The translations under genes and the position numbers were made by a program. Below, piece after piece: positions 44,510 through 52,885 of a stretch of 64,000 nucleotides of DNA. The stretch spans positions 1 to 64,000 of the forward strand of contig NZ_QLNP01000099.1 in the NCBI RefSeq assembly GCF_003261175.1. The letters are read 5' to 3'. This DNA comes from Arthrobacter globiformis. Its GTDB lineage: Bacteria > Actinomycetota > Actinomycetes > Actinomycetales > Micrococcaceae. The stretch's first letter is position 1. The number at the start of each line of letters is the position of its first letter. The notes under the pieces are model-generated. The model saw only the letters and a list, made by a program, of their open reading frames with translations. It was not told the DNA's origin and did not search any database.

Positions 44510-44983
44510 ATGACCGCACCGCCACGGCCCGACCGGACCCTGATCGTAGTTCTCGTCATCATTGCCGGTCTCGTCGCCGTGGCGCTCGCTGTGGTCTTTT
44601 TCCGGGGCGAGCCGGAGCCGCTTGCTGAGAATACGCCGGCGGGTGTGGTCCAGCGGTATGCGGCCGCCGTCCTGAACAATGACGCCGCGGCAGCCGCACG
44701 CTTCACGACTGATGGACGCTCCGGACAGCCGGACCGGCCGTGCGTGCCGGCGGACCGTCCTGAGACGGGCACGCTCCGGGTCACGCTGGCCTCCACCGTG
44801 GAGCATGCCGACACTGCGGACGTTCACGCCGTCCTGGCCACCTCCTACGGCAACGGTCCGTTCGGGAATTCCGAATATGAGACCGAGGCCGTTTTTAACC
44901 TTGAGCGGGTGAACGGCAACTGGCTCGTTGCCACTGCCCCATGGCAGCTCACCATCTGTCCCGTTCCGGCGGCGAAGCCGTGA
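44510..44983 (+). CDS. Single-pass membrane protein with NTF2-like domain (suspected)
   Basis: A 157-residue protein with an N-terminal membrane anchor (TLIVVLVIIAGLVAVALAVV) and an outside domain with NTPAGVVQRYAAAVLNNDAA, VHAVLATSYG and NLERVNGNWLVATAPWQL. That helix-then-strands order resembles NTF2-like accessory domains. Cys residues near both domain ends may bond. The stop overlaps the next gene (GTGA), so the pair is co-translated. Confidence 0.72.
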   Translation: MTAPPRPDRTLIVVLVIIAGLVAVALAVVFFRGEPEPLAENTPAGVVQRYAAAVLNNDAAAAARFTTDGRSGQPDRPCVPADRPETGTLRVTLASTVEHADTADVHAVLATSYGNGPFGNSEYETEAVFNLERVNGNWLVATAPWQLTICPVPAAKP

Positions 44984-46800
44984 GTACCGTCCGGCCTGGC
45001 TCACGCGAATCATCATCGCCGGCGGTGCCCGCGGTGCCCGCGGTGCGGCGGCTGGTGGTCTTTGTACTCCTCTTTGTCCTCGTGCTGATCGGCGCTTCCG
45101 GCGTGGGCGGCCTGTTTGAGCGGCTGCTTACCTCCGGCGCGGGGCTGGCCGGGAACGACGTCGGCAGCCTCGCCCGGTCCCTTGCGTTTGCGCTGGTCGG
45201 CGGGTCCATGGCCGCGGTCCTGTGGTGGCTCGTGTGGCGCCGGCAGGGGGAAGAAGCGGAGCGCTCCTCGGGTGCCTGGGGGCTGTACGTCTCCGGCGTA
45301 TACATCGTTGCCCTCATTGCTGCGGTTACGGCTGTGCTCGGCGCTGTATCGCAGTTGGTTGGGCTGCTGGCCCGCGCCGCAACCGGCGCGGCGGGTGCGT
45401 TGGGTGAGGGCCTGGAATGGCGTTCGTCCCTGGCTACGGGTGTGGTGTGGGCCGCCGTCTGGGCATGGCACCGGTGGATGTGGCAGCACCGTGGCAAGGG
45501 CCCGCGCCGGCTGGGAACCGTCCCGGCGCTCGCGGGCTCGGTGTTGGGCCTGCTGATAGGTGCCGGCGGGGCCGTGACTGCGCTTGGCAGTCTTCTCGAT
45601 GCGGCGCTGCGTGGGCTGGCAGGTACCCATGACGTGGGATCGCCCTGGTGGGTTTCGGTGCTGCAGTCACTCATCTGGGCCGGCGGCGGATTCCTGGTTT
45701 GGTGGTGGCATTGGGTCTCTGGCGAAGCGCGGCGCCTGTTCTCACCGCTGGCCAACGTGGCCGCGGCGGTCTTCGGAGTGCTTGGCGGCTGCATTACGGC
45801 AATGGCCGGCGCCGTCACAGCCGTGTTCGTCCTGTTGCGGCTGGTACTGGACCGCTCCGAAGACATGATCCGGCTCGTGGATCCCCTTGGCCCCGCGCTG
45901 GCCGCGGCAGCTGTCGGGTGCCTCGTCTGGCGCTACCACGCGTTGCTCACGGCCGCGCGGTCGGAGAAGATGCGGGCGACGGGGCTGCTGCTGGCATCGG
46001 GAGTGGCGGTGGCCGCTGCGGCCTCGGGTGTGGGGGTTGTAGTCAACGCCGCCTTGGGCTTTGCCGAGACAACGCTGGCGGGCACGGGCACGCGCACACT
46101 GCTGCTGGGCGGAATCAGTGCCCTGGTTGTGGGCGGTGCGGTCTGGTGGTGGGCGTGGCAGCCGGCGGACCGCCGCGGATCGGCGAGCGCCGATGATGCG
46201 GGCGGAGCAGATGGTGCAGACGGCCTGCCGGCCCGCGCCGCTGCCGGACGGCGCATCTACCTCGTGGCTATCTTCGCGATCAGCGCCGTCGTGGCCCTGA
46301 TCGCCCTGCTGGTGGTCGGCTACCAGACCTTTGAGCATCTTCTGGACCCGGTGCGCTCTGGAAACCTGGTGGGACGGATCCGGGCGCCGCTCGGACTGCT
46401 GACCTCCACCGCGCTCGTGGCCGCCTATCACTACAGCGTTTGGCGCAGGGAGCGTGTGCTGCCGGCGGAAACCGGCTCACTGCGGGAAACTGGCCGGGTG
46501 CAAGACGCCGGTCCGGTACGGACTGCGCGACGGACGATCGGCCAAGTCGTCCTGGTGACGGGCTCCGATCCTGTTCCGCTGTCACGCGCCATCCACGAAG
46601 CCTCCGGTGCCGACGTGACGGTCTGGCTGCGGTCCGGCCTACCGGCAGGGCCGGATCCGGAACAGCCGGATCCGGAACAGCCGGATGCCGGAACGCTTAT
46701 GGCCGCGCTGGAAGGTGTGAGCGCAGAGCGGGTGCTGGTCGTCGTCGGACCCGGCGTCCGGATCGATGTCATCCCGGTACGCCAACTGGGTAGCAGCTGA
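44980..46800 (+). CDS. DUF5671-type polytopic membrane protein
   Basis: A large membrane protein of about 606 residues with a dozen or more helices in repeated blocks. Each block has a pattern such as SLAFALVGGSMAAVLWWLVW, SLIWAGGGFLVWWWHWVSGE or RAPLGLLTSTALVAAYHYSV, as in DUF5671 repeats. The C-terminal 110 residues are soluble (RTIGQVVLVTGSDPVPLSRA; ERVLVVVGPGVRIDVIPV). A 15-base tandem repeat encodes PDPEQ twice. The start is GTG 44980, overlapping the previous stop. Function unknown. Confidence 0.78.
   Translation: MSTVRPGSRESSSPAVPAVPAVRRLVVFVLLFVLVLIGASGVGGLFERLLTSGAGLAGNDVGSLARSLAFALVGGSMAAVLWWLVWRRQGEEAERSSGAWGLYVSGVYIVALIAAVTAVLGAVSQLVGLLARAATGAAGALGEGLEWRSSLATGVVWAAVWAWHRWMWQHRGKGPRRLGTVPALAGSVLGLLIGAGGAVTALGSLLDAALRGLAGTHDVGSPWWVSVLQSLIWAGGGFLVWWWHWVSGEARRLFSPLANVAAAVFGVLGGCITAMAGAVTAVFVLLRLVLDRSEDMIRLVDPLGPALAAAAVGCLVWRYHALLTAARSEKMRATGLLLASGVAVAAAASGVGVVVNAALGFAETTLAGTGTRTLLLGGISALVVGGAVWWWAWQPADRRGSASADDAGGADGADGLPARAAAGRRIYLVAIFAISAVVALIALLVVGYQTFEHLLDPVRSGNLVGRIRAPLGLLTSTALVAAYHYSVWRRERVLPAETGSLRETGRVQDAGPVRTARRTIGQVVLVTGSDPVPLSRAIHEASGADVTVWLRSGLPAGPDPEQPDPEQPDAGTLMAALEGVSAERVLVVVGPGVRIDVIPVRQLGSS
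46651..46690 (+). repeat. 15-base tandem repeat inside the DUF5671 gene
   Basis: CCGGATCCGGAACAG occurs twice in direct succession (46651-46665, 46666-46680) followed by a partial third copy. The unit is a multiple of three and encodes repeated Pro-Asp-Pro-Glu-Gln, so copy number can change without a frameshift. Confidence 0.75.
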
Positions 46801-47707: not shown

Positions 47708-49270
47708 TTACCTTCCGCCGGGGCCGCGTCCCTGCGTGTACTCTCCGGCCGTGACCGTGCCGAGCTCCGTGGCGCCGTCGAGGGCGCCATCGCCCAGTCC
47801 TGACTGCACCTTCGCCGTGCCCCCGGTGTACACCGTGTACTGCTTTCCTGCTTCGATGCCCCCCGAGGATAGGACCAGCGAGCCGGTGGCTTTGGTGGTC
47901 ACAAAGGTGGCCACGAGCTTGCCGTCCGCGTCGGCCAGCTGCACGGTGGTGCCCGCCGGCACGGTCGAGGCGAAGGTGACCTGCACGCCTGACTGGGTGG
48001 AGCTTGTCCCCGGGGTGACAACCATGCCGGCGCTTCCTGCCGCGGCGACCGTTCCGCCGCTGACTGCCAGCTCGCCGTTGACATCGAGTGCACCGTTGCC
48101 GTTGCTTTCGGGCCCGTTGACCACCACGGTGCCGCCGGAGATGGAGGCGTTGCCGTTGGAGTCCAGGCCGTCGCCCTCGGAATTGATGGTGAGGGAGCCG
48201 CCGGAGATGTCCACGCTGTAGTCGCCCACCGATTCCCCGCCGCCGGGCCCGCCCATGCCGCCCCCTGGCTGGGCAGCGGTTGAGGCGCCGCCGGAGGCGT
48301 TCACGCCGTCATCGGTGGAGGTCACCCAGACCGTGCCGCCGCTGACGGCGATGTGCTGGGCTTCGAGGCCTTCCGACGACTCCGATACAGTCACGGTGCC
48401 GTTCGCGATGGCGAGCTGGTTCTGCGCCTTGACGCCGTCGTCCCCGGCGCTGACAGTGAGCTTGCCGCCGTTGACCAGCAGCCAGCCGCGGCCGTCGTCG
48501 GTGTCATTGTCTGATTTGAAGCCGTCACCGCCGGCGGTGATCTGGTAGGCCCCGTCCAGAAGGACCGCGTAGTCCTTGCCGCGGATGCCGTCGTCGGCTG
48601 CTTTCACTGTGACATTGCCGGCGGCCAGAACCAGGCCGTCCTTGGACACGATGCCGTCGTTGTACTGGCCGGTGACTTGAAGCGAGCCAGTCCCGGCCAG
48701 GGTCAGGTCGGCCATGGAGTAGAGCGCCGCGTTCGGCGCGTCGGTTCCCTGGTCAGCGTACGTGGCAGCGTCCTTGATGGAATTGGTGCTGCCGTCCTCG
48801 AGGAACAGGATGGCCTCGTTGGCGCTCTGGACGACGAACGGTGAGCCTGTTGAGCTGGCGAGGGTCGCGCCGTCGAGGATCACGCGGACCACGTCTTCTT
48901 CGCCGGCAGCGATCACCACCTTGCCGTCATCGAGGGCACCGGACAGCCGGTAGGTCCCGGCGGCGGTGATGGTGACGGTGTCGCCGTCGACCTTTACTCC
49001 GGCGGCGGAGCCCGCCGCCGCGGAGGCGCCGGCCTTGAGCGTGACGGCCACTTCGTTGGCCGCCTCCCAGGTGAGGTCGTCTGCGTCGTAATGCGTGTCC
49101 TCGGAGATCGAGGCTGCCGTCACCATCTGCGTGCTGGACGCTGTGCCGGTGCCCGACTGGCTGCCGGCGGCCGTTCCGTTGGAGGCCGTGCTTCCCGAGG
49201 CGGAGCAGCCGGCGAGGATGAGGGCCAGGGCGAAGGCGGCCACGGAGAAGGTCGTGCTGAATTTGCGCAT
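47708..49270 (-). CDS. Secreted carbohydrate-binding (DUF4353-like) lipoprotein
   Basis: A 520-residue lipoprotein (VAAFALALILAGCSA, lipobox LAGC). After a Gly/Ser/Thr-rich tether comes a long right-handed beta-helix-like region in which turns recur: ATYADQGTD, SKDGLVLAAGNVTVKAADDG, GKLTVSAGDDGVKAQNQLAI, SSEGLEAQHIAVSGGTVWVT, SGGSLTINSEGDGLDSNGNA. These DDG/EG turns typify carbohydrate-binding DUF4353 proteins found next to VTC and CotH genes. It is last in a five-gene unit and likely sits on the cell surface. AAGGA upstream of the ATG. Confidence 0.82.
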   Translation of the reverse strand: MRKFSTTFSVAAFALALILAGCSASGSTASNGTAAGSQSGTGTASSTQMVTAASISEDTHYDADDLTWEAANEVAVTLKAGASAAAGSAAGVKVDGDTVTITAAGTYRLSGALDDGKVVIAAGEEDVVRVILDGATLASSTGSPFVVQSANEAILFLEDGSTNSIKDAATYADQGTDAPNAALYSMADLTLAGTGSLQVTGQYNDGIVSKDGLVLAAGNVTVKAADDGIRGKDYAVLLDGAYQITAGGDGFKSDNDTDDGRGWLLVNGGKLTVSAGDDGVKAQNQLAIANGTVTVSESSEGLEAQHIAVSGGTVWVTSTDDGVNASGGASTAAQPGGGMGGPGGGESVGDYSVDISGGSLTINSEGDGLDSNGNASISGGTVVVNGPESNGNGALDVNGELAVSGGTVAAAGSAGMVVTPGTSSTQSGVQVTFASTVPAGTTVQLADADGKLVATFVTTKATGSLVLSSGGIEAGKQYTVYTGGTAKVQSGLGDGALDGATELGTVTAGEYTQGRGPGGR

Positions 49271-49324
49271 GGTGGTTCCTTGGAGGTCTTGGGGGGTCTT
49301 GGGGAGTCGAAAGCAGGGAGCGGG

Positions 49325-50083
49325 TCAGGCTGCGGGGGCCAGCCGCATGCTGTTCCGGAGCGTCCGGTTCCAGCGGTTGGCCGGCAGGTGCGGGTGCAGC
49401 GCGGCCATCCCGGTGGCGAACTTGGAGATCCTGGACGGCCGCACACCGTGTCGCCACAGGTGCCTGTCCAGCGGTCCGGCGGCCGACGCTGATTTGGTCT
49501 CGAGCACTACGCTGCCCGCCAGTACCCACGGCTCGCCGTCCCCGGTCTGCCAGGTGACGTCCGAGTCGATCGTTGCGCGGCTGCCGGACTCCGGGAGATA
49601 GAGGGTGGTCCGGCGGTAGCGGGTTTCCAGCACAGGACCCAGGGCGCCGTCCGGAACGTCGCCAACGGCCGTGGCCAGGGTTTCGTTGACGTACTCCAGG
49701 CCTTCCGCGGTGAGCCGGGAGCGGTCCGCGATGTCATAGGGGATGCGTTCCTTGACGGTGGCCGCCCGTGTCCCCTCGGTCTTGACCTCGAGGAAACTGG
49801 TGCCGGTGTCCGCATAGGTCCGGGTGCGGATCTTGTAGCGGCGGCGACGGCCGCGGGCCGCCAGCATGTAGCTGTCCAGCTGCGGAGTGTCGAAGTAGAC
49901 GGAGTCGTAGGCGAAGGACCGGAGGCCGTCCATTTCGAGGACCCGGGCCTGGCCGGCGAAGGTTGCCAGCACCTGCCGGGCAGTCGCGGCGGGGACCACG
50001 TACTTCCGGTCCACCCGGGTCTGCAGGGCGGCTTCTGCATTGAGCTCCTGGAGGCCGATCGGCGGCAGTCCGGCGAGGCTCAT
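49325..50083 (-). CDS. VTC-domain polyphosphate polymerase-like protein
   Basis: A 252-residue tunnel-fold (VTC/CYTH-like) protein with no membrane helix. Conserved basic and acidic positions are visible: TRVDRKYVV, YDSVYFDTPQLDSYMLAARG, RRRRYKIRTRTY, FLEVKTEG, KERIPYD, LETRYRRTTLY, VLETKSAS and RISKFATGM. In yeast VTC these residues hold polyphosphate and ATP. The start at 50083 has GAGGAG six bases upstream; an ATG at 50116, overlapping the previous stop, has a poor site. It likely works with the adjacent DUF4956 membrane protein. Confidence 0.86.
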   Translation of the reverse strand: MSLAGLPPIGLQELNAEAALQTRVDRKYVVPAATARQVLATFAGQARVLEMDGLRSFAYDSVYFDTPQLDSYMLAARGRRRRYKIRTRTYADTGTSFLEVKTEGTRAATVKERIPYDIADRSRLTAEGLEYVNETLATAVGDVPDGALGPVLETRYRRTTLYLPESGSRATIDSDVTWQTGDGEPWVLAGSVVLETKSASAAGPLDRHLWRHGVRPSRISKFATGMAALHPHLPANRWNRTLRNSMRLAPAA

Positions 50084-50112
50084 GAATGTCTCCTCGGTAG
50101 GAGGTGTGGCCC

Positions 50113-50727
50113 TCATGCCGCACCTGCCGCGGCGGAAGCTGCTACACCCGGGCCGTCCGGGCCGACCAGGCGGTTCCCGCGGGCTGGGAGGCAGGCGTAG
50201 CGGACGTCCACGATGGTCTTGTCGTTCACCAGGTCCAGTTCCTGCACGGTGACCGTGTGGACCTTCGCGGCGAGCAGCTCCTCAAGCCGTGCGGTGAGTT
50301 CGTCCTCGCGGGAAATGGCGCGGTCCAGGACGACGGTCTGGTGCCGGTAGGCGGGAAGGACCCACTCGTGGTCGCCGACGAACATGACGGCCAGCACCAG
50401 TCCCATGAGGGATAGGGTCAGCCAGACCGGTTCGACGCCAACGCCCGAGATCAGGCCCAGGGCCAGCGCGGAGAAGTAGTAGGCCACCTCGTGCTGGGCC
50501 AGTTCGGTGGAACGGAGACGGATGATCGAGAGAACCCCGAAGAGGCCCAGCCCAAGTCCCAGGCCGGCGGCGGAGCCGGAGAGCGCCGTGGCCACGGCCA
50601 GGACGCCGATATTCATCCCGAGATAGGACACGGCCAGGTCCCTGCGCCGGTGGCGGCGGATGTAAAGCGCGAAGGTGAGCACGCAGATGGCGATGACGTC
50701 TGCGGCGATAAGTATCAGGTGGTTCAT
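50113..50727 (-). CDS. DUF4956 membrane protein
   Basis: A 204-residue protein with an N-terminal block of four or so helices (LILIAADVIAICVLTFALYI, LGMNIGVLAVATALSGSAAG, VAYYFSALALGLISGVGV, LSLMGLVLAVMFVGDHEW) and a soluble C-terminus (ELTARLEELLAAKVHTVTVQ, ELDLVNDKTIVDVRYACLPA). The cytosolic RLRSTELAQHEVAYYF loop is characteristic. DUF4956 genes regularly neighbour VTC genes and may act as the membrane channel or anchor for the polymer. GGAGA precedes the ATG. Confidence 0.86.
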   Translation of the reverse strand: MNHLILIAADVIAICVLTFALYIRRHRRRDLAVSYLGMNIGVLAVATALSGSAAGLGLGLGLFGVLSIIRLRSTELAQHEVAYYFSALALGLISGVGVEPVWLTLSLMGLVLAVMFVGDHEWVLPAYRHQTVVLDRAISREDELTARLEELLAAKVHTVTVQELDLVNDKTIVDVRYACLPARGNRLVGPDGPGVAASAAAGAA

Positions 50728-50752
50728 GGGATTCTCCGGGTCTCGTGATGGG

Positions 50753-51832
50753 CTACTTGCTACGATTCACGGCCAAGCTGTGCCGGGGCTGTGCCGGAAC
50801 AAGGTCTGGTTTATGACCTTTGGTGAAAAGGAACCGCTGCTGGACGGCGTAGCTCACGGCGAACAGGGCGACTTCGGTGAGTAGCTTGGCGGGCAGGTCC
50901 GCGACGCCGGCGCCTGCCAGCGCCGTCAGGAGTGCGTAGTTCGCCGCCAGCATGGAGAACACGAGGGCGACGTATCGGGCGGCCGTGGCGCGGGCAGGCT
51001 TCTCGCCGCCGTGTTTGAACACCAGCCGGCGGTTGATCAGATAGTTGGCCGTGGCGCTCAGGCAACGGGCACCGACGACGGCCGCCAGAACCGAGTCGGT
51101 AGCCGCGCTGAGGGCAAGGAAGGCGACGGTGTCGATCAGGAAGCCGGCGAGGGACGACAGCAGGAACTTCAGCAGCGGGGCATAGATGCGCACCGAGTCC
51201 GCGAGCGGCCGGAAGTGCGATCCGGAGTTGCGGTCCAAATAGATGGTGGCGATGCCCACACAGGCGATGCCGTAGCCGGCCGTCGTGGCCTCAAGCAGGA
51301 GGTTCAGTTCGTATTCGTAGCGCTCACCGCCTACGGTCAGGAGCCAGGGCAGCATGGCTGCAGGGTAGCCGCGCAGCCCCGTCTGTGTGTCCGCGATGCG
51401 CTCGCCGGTGGCCAGCCGGAACAGCAGCCGGGTGGCGGCGTTGCCGAAGCGGCTGCGTGCGGGGACGTCGCCGGCGAAGGTGCGGGTGCCGAGCACCATG
51501 GAGGCGGCGTCAGTGCCGGCCACGCCGGCCACGCGCAGGATGTCCACGACGCTGTGCTGGCCGTCGCTGTCTGCACACACCACGTCCTGGCCGGGGAAGC
51601 GGTCCAGAATGAAGCGAAAGCCGGTTTTCAGTGCGGAGCCCTTGCCCAGGTTTGCCGGATAACTGATGACATGCGCGCCGGCCCGGCGCGCGCCGTCGAA
51701 AATCTGCCCGTAGGCCGGCCCGCTGCCGTCATCCACGACGACGAGACTGAGGGCGGGGTCTGCTGCGCGGATCGCGCCAATCACTTCAAGAAGCTGGATG
51801 TCCGGCTCGTAGGCGGGGATCAGGATGATCAT
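50753..51832 (-). CDS. GT2 glycosyltransferase fused to a GtrA-like membrane domain
   Basis: A 359-residue fusion. Residues 1-210 are a family 2 glycosyltransferase (MIILIPAYEPDIQLLEVIGA, LVVVDDGSG, ADSDGQHS with the DxD-type motif, ADTQTGLRGYPAAMLPWLL). Residues 225-355 form four helices of the GtrA family (FLLSSLAGFLIDTVAFLALS, SATANYLINRRLVFKHGGEK, AVSYAVQQRFLFTKGHK). It resembles polyprenyl-phosphate glycosyltransferases with a flippase-type partner. It starts nine bases after the glycosidase gene, in one operon. Confidence 0.9.
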   Translation of the reverse strand: MIILIPAYEPDIQLLEVIGAIRAADPALSLVVVDDGSGPAYGQIFDGARRAGAHVISYPANLGKGSALKTGFRFILDRFPGQDVVCADSDGQHSVVDILRVAGVAGTDAASMVLGTRTFAGDVPARSRFGNAATRLLFRLATGERIADTQTGLRGYPAAMLPWLLTVGGERYEYELNLLLEATTAGYGIACVGIATIYLDRNSGSHFRPLADSVRIYAPLLKFLLSSLAGFLIDTVAFLALSAATDSVLAAVVGARCLSATANYLINRRLVFKHGGEKPARATAARYVALVFSMLAANYALLTALAGAGVADLPAKLLTEVALFAVSYAVQQRFLFTKGHKPDLVPAQPRHSLAVNRSK

Positions 51833-51841
51833 GGCGGGACT

Positions 51842-52885
51842 TCACTTGCCGATGTACAGGATGTCAGAGGTGCCGCGCTCGCGGTTTGCACCCAGCGGAT
51901 TGTTGACCAGTGCGCCGTCGAAATACATGGTGGAGGAGCCGCCGCCGTCGAGGTTGTAGGCCGTTTCTGCGCCCAGATCCTTCATGATCTGCGCCATTCC
52001 CGTCATGGTCACGCCGGTGCTGTAGCCCGGGCTGCGGCCGTCAGCCACCACAAAGACCAGGTGGTTGGTGCCGATGAGCCCCACGGCGGTGCGCGGCTGC
52101 TCGCCCTGGATGGAATGGTTGCCGAAGTTGGTGTCCACCTCGACGTCCTCGATGCCGTCCACGATCTGGCTGTCCTGGACGATTGCCGGCCCGAAGGACA
52201 GGGTGTTCCAGACGCCGTCGGCGACCAGCTGCTCGGCGTTGGTGGCGGTTTCGTCGTAGACCTTCACGGTTCCGTCCCGGTAGAACGCCAGCCCCTGGCG
52301 GGCGCCCTCGTCGCGGTAGACAACACCGTTGCGGATGACGATGCCGGTGTCCCGGAAGCCGTAGTAGTCGCCGTTGACGGCGAAGATCGCGTTGTGGGCA
52401 GCCGCGATTTCCGAAGTGGTCTGGGTGATGTTCTCACCGAAACTGTCGTTGGCGAACGCGGACTTGAGCGTCGTGGCGTCGTCAAGGGCGACGTCGGCAA
52501 CGTAGTAGGTGACCGTGCTGTCACCGCTGCCGGTGACCACCGTGGAGATGTTGATGTTGGTGCCGTCGGCCGTGTAGGAGGTGTCCGTGACAGAGGCGGG
52601 CGATCCCACTGTCGTGGTCCCGGACGACGCGCCCTGGGCTGCCTCGTAGGCGGACACATCGGAAATCTCCACGTGCTGCACCACGAACCTGTCCAGCGCC
52701 CAGGCGGTGGCGCCGCCGGCGGACAGCGTGAGGGCGAGGGCTCCGGCGAGGATGGCCCGGCGCGTCGGCCTTGTCTTGCCGCGCTCGCGGGCTGGGCCGG
52801 GCGGGCCGGGGTACCCCGCTTCGCCGGGTTGCCGGGCGACGTCGGAGGAAATTTCTTTGCTGCGGGTGTTCTGCTGTGAGGTCAT
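51842..52885 (-). CDS. Phosphodiester glycosidase (NAGPA-domain) membrane protein
   Basis: A 347-residue protein with one N-terminal membrane anchor (RAILAGALALTLSAGGATAW) and an outside domain of the NAGPA family. Motifs: IFAVNGDYYGFRDTGIVIRN, PRTAVGLIGTNHLVFVVADG, GAETAYNLDGGGSSTMYFDG. The family removes GlcNAc from phosphodiester-linked sugars or trims exopolysaccharide. It is first of five genes on the minus strand and sets the theme of the cluster: surface phospho-glycan metabolism. Confidence 0.88.
   Translation of the reverse strand: MTSQQNTRSKEISSDVARQPGEAGYPGPPGPARERGKTRPTRRAILAGALALTLSAGGATAWALDRFVVQHVEISDVSAYEAAQGASSGTTTVGSPASVTDTSYTADGTNINISTVVTGSGDSTVTYYVADVALDDATTLKSAFANDSFGENITQTTSEIAAAHNAIFAVNGDYYGFRDTGIVIRNGVVYRDEGARQGLAFYRDGTVKVYDETATNAEQLVADGVWNTLSFGPAIVQDSQIVDGIEDVEVDTNFGNHSIQGEQPRTAVGLIGTNHLVFVVADGRSPGYSTGVTMTGMAQIMKDLGAETAYNLDGGGSSTMYFDGALVNNPLGANRERGTSDILYIGK

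Follow-up and report, generated by a model that had tools for sequence, protein, structure and literature searches.

Five adjacent minus-strand genes of Arthrobacter globiformis, at 47708-52885 of a 64,000-nucleotide stretch of contig NZ_QLNP01000099.1 (the window), may form a two-part surface operon. In the reading that we tentatively prefer, a VTC-domain protein and a DUF4956 membrane protein would make a phosphate chain that is held outside the cell, and a lipid-carried sugar would be used nearby by an adjoining pair, a NAGPA-type phosphodiester glycosidase and a GT2-GtrA fusion. This reading is drawn from gene neighbourhoods that recur in relatives, from the residues of the VTC tunnel and from the junctions between the genes. 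A first-pass annotation had assigned the five genes to these families, and the open reading frames, each with a Pfam match above cut-off, bear it out:

51842..52885, minus strand: NAGPA-type phosphodiester glycosidase (347 residues; PF09992)
50753..51832, minus strand: GT2-GtrA, probable polyprenyl-phosphate sugar synthase with a GtrA membrane domain (359 residues)
50113..50727, minus strand: DUF4956 membrane protein (204 residues; PF16316)
50113..50116, minus strand: ATGA, overlap of the DUF4956 stop with the likely VTC start (read from the sequence)
49325..50116, minus strand: VTC (triphosphate-tunnel) protein (263 residues from the likely start at 50116)
47708..49270, minus strand: Cthe_2159-type beta-helix lipoprotein (520 residues; lipobox LAGC)

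The VTC core and its surface partner

The core was followed in a phylum sample of 396 genomes, 42 of them with VTC, which together with four order-level genomes gave 46 that were compared for four more families. Neighbours were counted around 49 VTC loci, with five second pieces of split VTC matches left out, using 26 of 50 Cthe_2159 rows (after removal of the weaker and the split rows), all 40 CotH rows and 19 of 21 NAGPA rows. DUF4956 lies within 6 kb of VTC at 48 of the 49 loci (46 genomes). A further partner is found in one of two forms, Cthe_2159 alone at 20 loci and CotH alone at 23; L070 is the sole phylum-sample locus with both, and five loci have neither, two of which (in G202 and G279) are on short contigs. 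The alternation gives p 4e-8 in a 2x2 table that is uncorrected for relatedness, and only genome G259 holds loci of both kinds. These counts agree with the earlier statement that VTC genes sit beside DUF4956 and beside CotH or DUF4353, which we take to be the old name of Cthe_2159. The CotH profile included one wrongly framed stretch of L066, and Pfam confirmed CotH in the individually checked proteins.

No match to CotH kinase was obtained in the window's genome, whereas Corynebacterium glutamicum, included as a control, gave matches to VTC, DUF4956 and CotH. The Cthe_2159 protein encoded there matches PF14262 (248.7 bits, 7.7e-74) and the structures 4peu/4phb (E 2.4e-34), and 54 of 56 relatives carry a lipobox-like motif; the beta-helix family presumably binds acidic glycans. 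A clue to topology comes from L066:3510-5882 (minus strand), where a single frame of 790 residues contains VTC (29-232), a hydrophobic stretch (307-325) with a lipobox-like VAAGC at its end, and CotH (427-769). If translated as read, this frame would place VTC inside and CotH outside the cell, and the fusion, a single case in which an internal start is possible, suggests synthesis inside with the partner outside.

The VTC protein matches Pfam VTC (PF09359) with 95 bits against a cut-off of 23 and has a closed, Vtc4-like triphosphate-tunnel fold. The tunnel residues that had been noted in it are well conserved, as the positions aligned with Vtc4 K200, RxR, ExK and K458 are invariant in 49 homologues, and R23 and K197 are basic, as in Vtc4. 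With this fold and residue set, the protein may make polyphosphate from ATP. Bacterial VTC proteins carry the annotation 'polyphosphate polymerase' by homology, and in the part of the open-access literature that was covered no assay of what a bacterial VTC protein makes was seen. PPK1 is present in 40 of 50 genomes, the window's included, which suggests a role for VTC other than supplying the ordinary cytoplasmic polyphosphate pool; the argument does not apply to the other 10. Neither Pfam nor a hydropathy scan found an SPX domain, a Vtc1-type membrane domain or a transmembrane helix in the VTC protein. At L031:10456-13569 (plus strand), the gene directly after VTC encodes a protein that combines periplasmic-binding-type, GGDEF and EAL domains, which hints at a cyclic-di-GMP link.

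DUF4956 of the window matches PF16316 (202.1 bits, 6.6e-60) and is 94% identical to a DUF4956 protein labelled A. globiformis. Its AlphaFold2 model (mean predicted local distance difference test score 71.6) has five long helices followed by a beta-alpha-beta-beta domain, and only R70, R72 and G91 are invariant among 48 sequences. The positive-inside rule would put the RRHRRRD loop, R70/R72 and the C-terminal domain on the cytoplasmic side of the membrane, that of VTC. We infer that DUF4956 could act as a channel. Pfam MgtC (PF02308) is matched at E up to 1 by 12 of the 48 relatives (best 6e-6) and ACT_4 by one (6.6e-4).

Gene junctions and the start of the VTC gene

Two in-frame starts are available to VTC, ATG 50083 (252 residues) and ATG 50116 (263 residues), and the second overlaps the DUF4956 stop by four bases (ATGA). 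In a first junction set, formed by the 80 best NAGPA loci described below plus L034 and L071, all 55 DUF4956-VTC junctions show a four-base overlap in the VTC frame, as do 35 of 82 NAGPA-GT, 18 of 47 GT-DUF4956 and 4 of 54 VTC-Cthe_2159 junctions. It is also present at 32 of 35 junctions of another set, in which the window joins 34 other DUF4956-first loci and some places count twice. Because the overlap recurs in both same-order sets, 50116 is the likelier VTC start, which stays unproven since 50083 is also preceded by a good ribosome-binding-like sequence. Intergenic gaps of 9, 25, 29 and 54 bases had been described; three of them stand, and the 29-base gap, which assumed a start at 50083, gives way to the overlap. 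Through ATGA, the translation of DUF4956 and VTC may be coupled. Judged from spacing, the five genes could share a single transcript. No sigma-70-like promoter came up in a consensus scan, whose terminator-like matches were no more frequent than by chance (2 versus 3.0 in shuffles), the minus-strand one lying inside the GT gene. A second lineage (L037-L058 and others) has VTC followed by DUF4956, mostly without the four-base overlap.

The NAGPA and GT2-GtrA pair

The NAGPA protein matches PF09992 (positions 1-168/169, 137.6 bits, 6e-40) and NAGPA crystal structures, among them 6pki (8.5e-9). Residues resembling a signal peptide follow TRRAILAG, which we take to be a twin-arginine-like motif; they were recognised by eye, and a hydropathy scan (1.5) did not flag them. 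The protein is probably exported. Members of its family act on sugar-1-phosphodiesters. GT2-GtrA matches PF00535 (38.5 bits, 1.4e-9) and PF04138 (48.1 bits, 1.6e-12), and reaches 66.4 bits (2.4e-18) with the PpgS model, far under its cut-off of 370.

When the window's NAGPA was scanned against named genomes, 390 relatives were obtained, with Arthrobacter, Pseudarthrobacter and Paenarthrobacter among the named sources of homologues, and the best 80 of the 390 form the NAGPA loci considered here. In all 80, NAGPA is followed by a same-strand GT2-GtrA gene, with a median of 12 bases between the aligned ends (range 0-441). DUF4956 is a companion at 55 of these loci, VTC at 53, Cthe_2159 at 53, all three together at 51 and CotH at 5, the CotH matches resting on the profile mentioned above and that in L115 also on the reading of the open reading frame. 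Where the link exists (55 loci), the VTC module lies downstream in line in 51, upstream and divergent in 3, and downstream in opposite orientation in 1. The other 25 loci lack DUF4956 and VTC, some of them on short contigs, and among 24 of the 25 no other real neighbour recurs in more than four. In a tree of 79 of the 80 proteins (L150 dropped), cut to the last 330 residues, the link to the VTC module would have to change seven times, and at least three changes are forced by well-supported branches.

A broader sample of 78 NAGPA places was made up of 74 of 119 rows (the 75 best less G343) together with G046 twice, G054 and G397. GtrA lies within 3 kb of four of the 78, all of the window's type (the window, G046, G054 and G397), which means one of the 74 phylum-sample places, the other three having been added as already known. 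At L070:3415-6442 (minus strand, genome G241), NAGPA stands beside a PMT_2/YkcB-type transferase, not GT2-GtrA. Transferases of this type use lipid-phosphate sugars. Response-regulator-like proteins were seen by eye just upstream of NAGPA at L029:6465-6851, L030:6593-6979 and L115:6790-7677. A second, different NAGPA-type gene of the window's genome lies outside the window, at G000:C73:36562-37131.

Distribution among relatives

Full-length VTC is present in 11 of 36 other genomes of the genus, plus one fragment, and in 5 of 22 genomes from elsewhere in the order. At 9 of the 11 congener loci (L020, L021, L022, L023, L024, L026, L028, L029 and L030) the five genes stand in the same order as in the window, so the arrangement exceeds chance; a comparison of gene order had been proposed as a check, and the neighbourhood proved to be conserved. 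L025 has four genes in order up to the contig end, L027 is without NAGPA and GT2-GtrA, and L020 and L023 carry extra genes between GT2-GtrA and DUF4956. L071, from a different family of the order, has the same five-gene arrangement.

Of the 36 congeners, 10 have full-length NAGPA of the window's type. Each of the 10 also has full-length VTC, and no full-length NAGPA of this type is present in the 25 congeners that lack full-length VTC. NAGPA fragments are found in G013, G020 and G002, and the remnants in G013 (L036:1828-2265 and L019:544-648) are of NAGPA and VTC. Together, these pieces suggest repeated loss, and from its distribution the operon looks like an accessory one that is often lost. 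Small exported proteins that resemble biofilm proteins of the TasA/camelysin type were noticed by eye near the cluster or its remnant at L023:9131-11038 and L036:4208-6101. L153, labelled Sporosarcina beigongshangi, has an Arthrobacter-like operon and a G+C content of 0.654, and is probably contamination.

Proposed mechanism and alternatives

In the two-part reading, to which we lean without firm conviction, cytoplasmic VTC would build a phosphate chain from ATP in its tunnel, as fold and residues suggest. VTC would be translated in coupling with the overlapping DUF4956 gene, probably to form a complex, and DUF4956 would carry the chain to or across the membrane. Outside, the Cthe_2159 lipoprotein would hold the product at the surface, a place that CotH kinase would take in other lineages. 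From their families and their pairing, GT2-GtrA would make and flip a polyprenyl-phosphate sugar, and outside the cell NAGPA would act at the sugar-1-phosphodiester bond in this lipid or in its product; sugar would in this way be put onto the material held at the surface or taken off it. The first-pass annotation had treated the five genes as a single unit. A conserved, surface-directed unit around VTC remains, and the notion of one five-step pathway does not, since the 25 unlinked NAGPA-GT2-GtrA loci and the 45 of 49 VTC loci without NAGPA within 6 kb argue for two separable modules. Polyphosphate is a putative product, and both its export and its trimming by NAGPA are hypothetical.

Several observations weigh against this proposal. 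In VTC, D25 is acidic where Vtc4 has T198, so that a hydrolase-type metal site may survive in part, the fourth position of the acidic second-metal patch of triphosphate-tunnel hydrolases not being placed; the position of Vtc4 R361 is not conserved. DUF4956 resembles MgtC and not the Vtc1 channel, in a model of only moderate quality. The four-base overlap is absent in L033, L065 and L085, and occurs in only 3 of 30 loci with the reverse order, VTC before DUF4956; set against the same-order counts, this makes coupling a property of the DUF4956-first order and not of the pair everywhere. Both modules, the NAGPA-GT2 pair as well as the VTC core, are also found alone, and the operon is dispensable, being absent from most congeners.

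Among the alternatives, the most serious, though rather unlikely, is a phosphoglycan operon, in which VTC, instead of releasing free polyphosphate, would attach phosphate to a glycan or protein of the surface, and NAGPA would edit sugar-phosphodiester links in the phosphoglycan. The known substrates of the NAGPA family, the linkage of the two modules in 55 of 80 loci and the CotH kinase partner of other lineages are all consistent with it, and cotH, VTC and DUF4956 genes accompany Pel polysaccharide loci in the portion of PMC7112168 consulted. It fits poorly with the closed Vtc4-like tunnel and its residues, and with the many VTC loci that have no NAGPA nearby.

We doubt a bolder form of the preferred scheme, in which VTC-DUF4956 would be a minimal machine for making and exporting polyphosphate, the chain serving in one set of lineages as a phosphate donor for CotH and in the other as a surface polymer held by Cthe_2159, and NAGPA, in the window's lineage, would be an extracytoplasmic transferase that takes sugar directly from the polyprenyl-phosphate sugar of GT2-GtrA, which is a sugar-1-phosphodiester too, and places it on the surface polymer. 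It is also improbable that VTC-DUF4956 is an intracellular, MgtC-like unit that senses or regulates ATP or phosphate and governs the surface genes next to it, with no export. The MgtC and ACT matches, the build of DUF4956 as membrane helices with a small C-terminal domain, and the GGDEF-EAL protein of L031 speak for such a role, whereas the frequent presence of Cthe_2159 or CotH (beside 44 of 49 VTC loci) and the VTC-transmembrane-CotH frame fit an exported product. A loose island of surface genes, whose modules adjoin without a shared product, would explain the 25 NAGPA-GT2 loci on their own, 24 of them without another regular neighbour, the separation of the modules by about 14 kb in G054 and the inserted genes of L020 and L023, but it has little chance given that, among congeners, window-type NAGPA is confined to those with full-length VTC and that the link recurs in two other orientations.

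Comparison with known systems

The yeast VTC complex shares with the two-part scheme the tunnel fold, the catalytic lysines and arginines, the basic R23 and K197 and a membrane partner; it differs in its SPX and Vtc1-type domains, which were not found here, and in that the neighbour here is the weakly MgtC-like DUF4956 and D25 is acidic. MgtC/SapB (PF02308) has the same membrane helices and small soluble C-terminal domain and is matched by a quarter of the DUF4956 relatives, whereas the window protein gives no match at E 1.

A single protein in which GT2 precedes a GtrA/DPMS membrane domain is of the dolichyl-phosphate-mannose synthase type, so the GT2-GtrA fusion is not new as such, and Pfam itself names PF04138 'GtrA/DPMS' (GtrA_DPMS_TM). 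In sequence, the match to 5mlz, an archaeal dolichyl-phosphate-mannose synthase of solved structure that we take to have a GT2 domain and such a membrane domain, reaches no better than E 0.86, and the usual neighbour of the fusion here is NAGPA. Three-component extracytoplasmic glycosylation employs a synthase, a GtrA-type flippase and a GT-C transferase. As proposed here, it has a lipid-phosphate sugar made inside and presented outside; unlike there, no GT-C gene recurs beside the NAGPA-GT2 pair in 24 clustered loci, and at L070 the PMT_2/YkcB-type transferase stands in place of GT2-GtrA.

According to the portion of PMC7112168 consulted, Gram-positive Pel loci carry cotH-PPP-DUF4956-DUF4832 accessory genes, so that the grouping of VTC (the 'poly-phosphate polymerase') with DUF4956 and a CotH-type partner is already in print; the present operon has Cthe_2159 for CotH, and NAGPA with GT2-GtrA for DUF4832. 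No paper treating a VTC-DUF4956-Cthe_2159-NAGPA-GT2-GtrA operon was recognised among the open-access papers listed, most subscription papers being outside their scope.

All parts belong to known families; joined as they are here, they suggest roles for bacterial VTC proteins that can be tested. The ATGA overlap with DUF4956 in this lineage, the CotH/Cthe_2159 alternation and the VTC-transmembrane-CotH frame make the question of the VTC product testable. If polyphosphate does leave the cell, CotH and other secreted kinases might draw phosphate from a source other than ATP, and the NAGPA-GT2-GtrA pair suggests a new use of the phosphodiester glycosidase family. Elsewhere in the window, 44941-46800 on the plus strand encodes a membrane-type protein of 619 residues with five DUF5671 matches.

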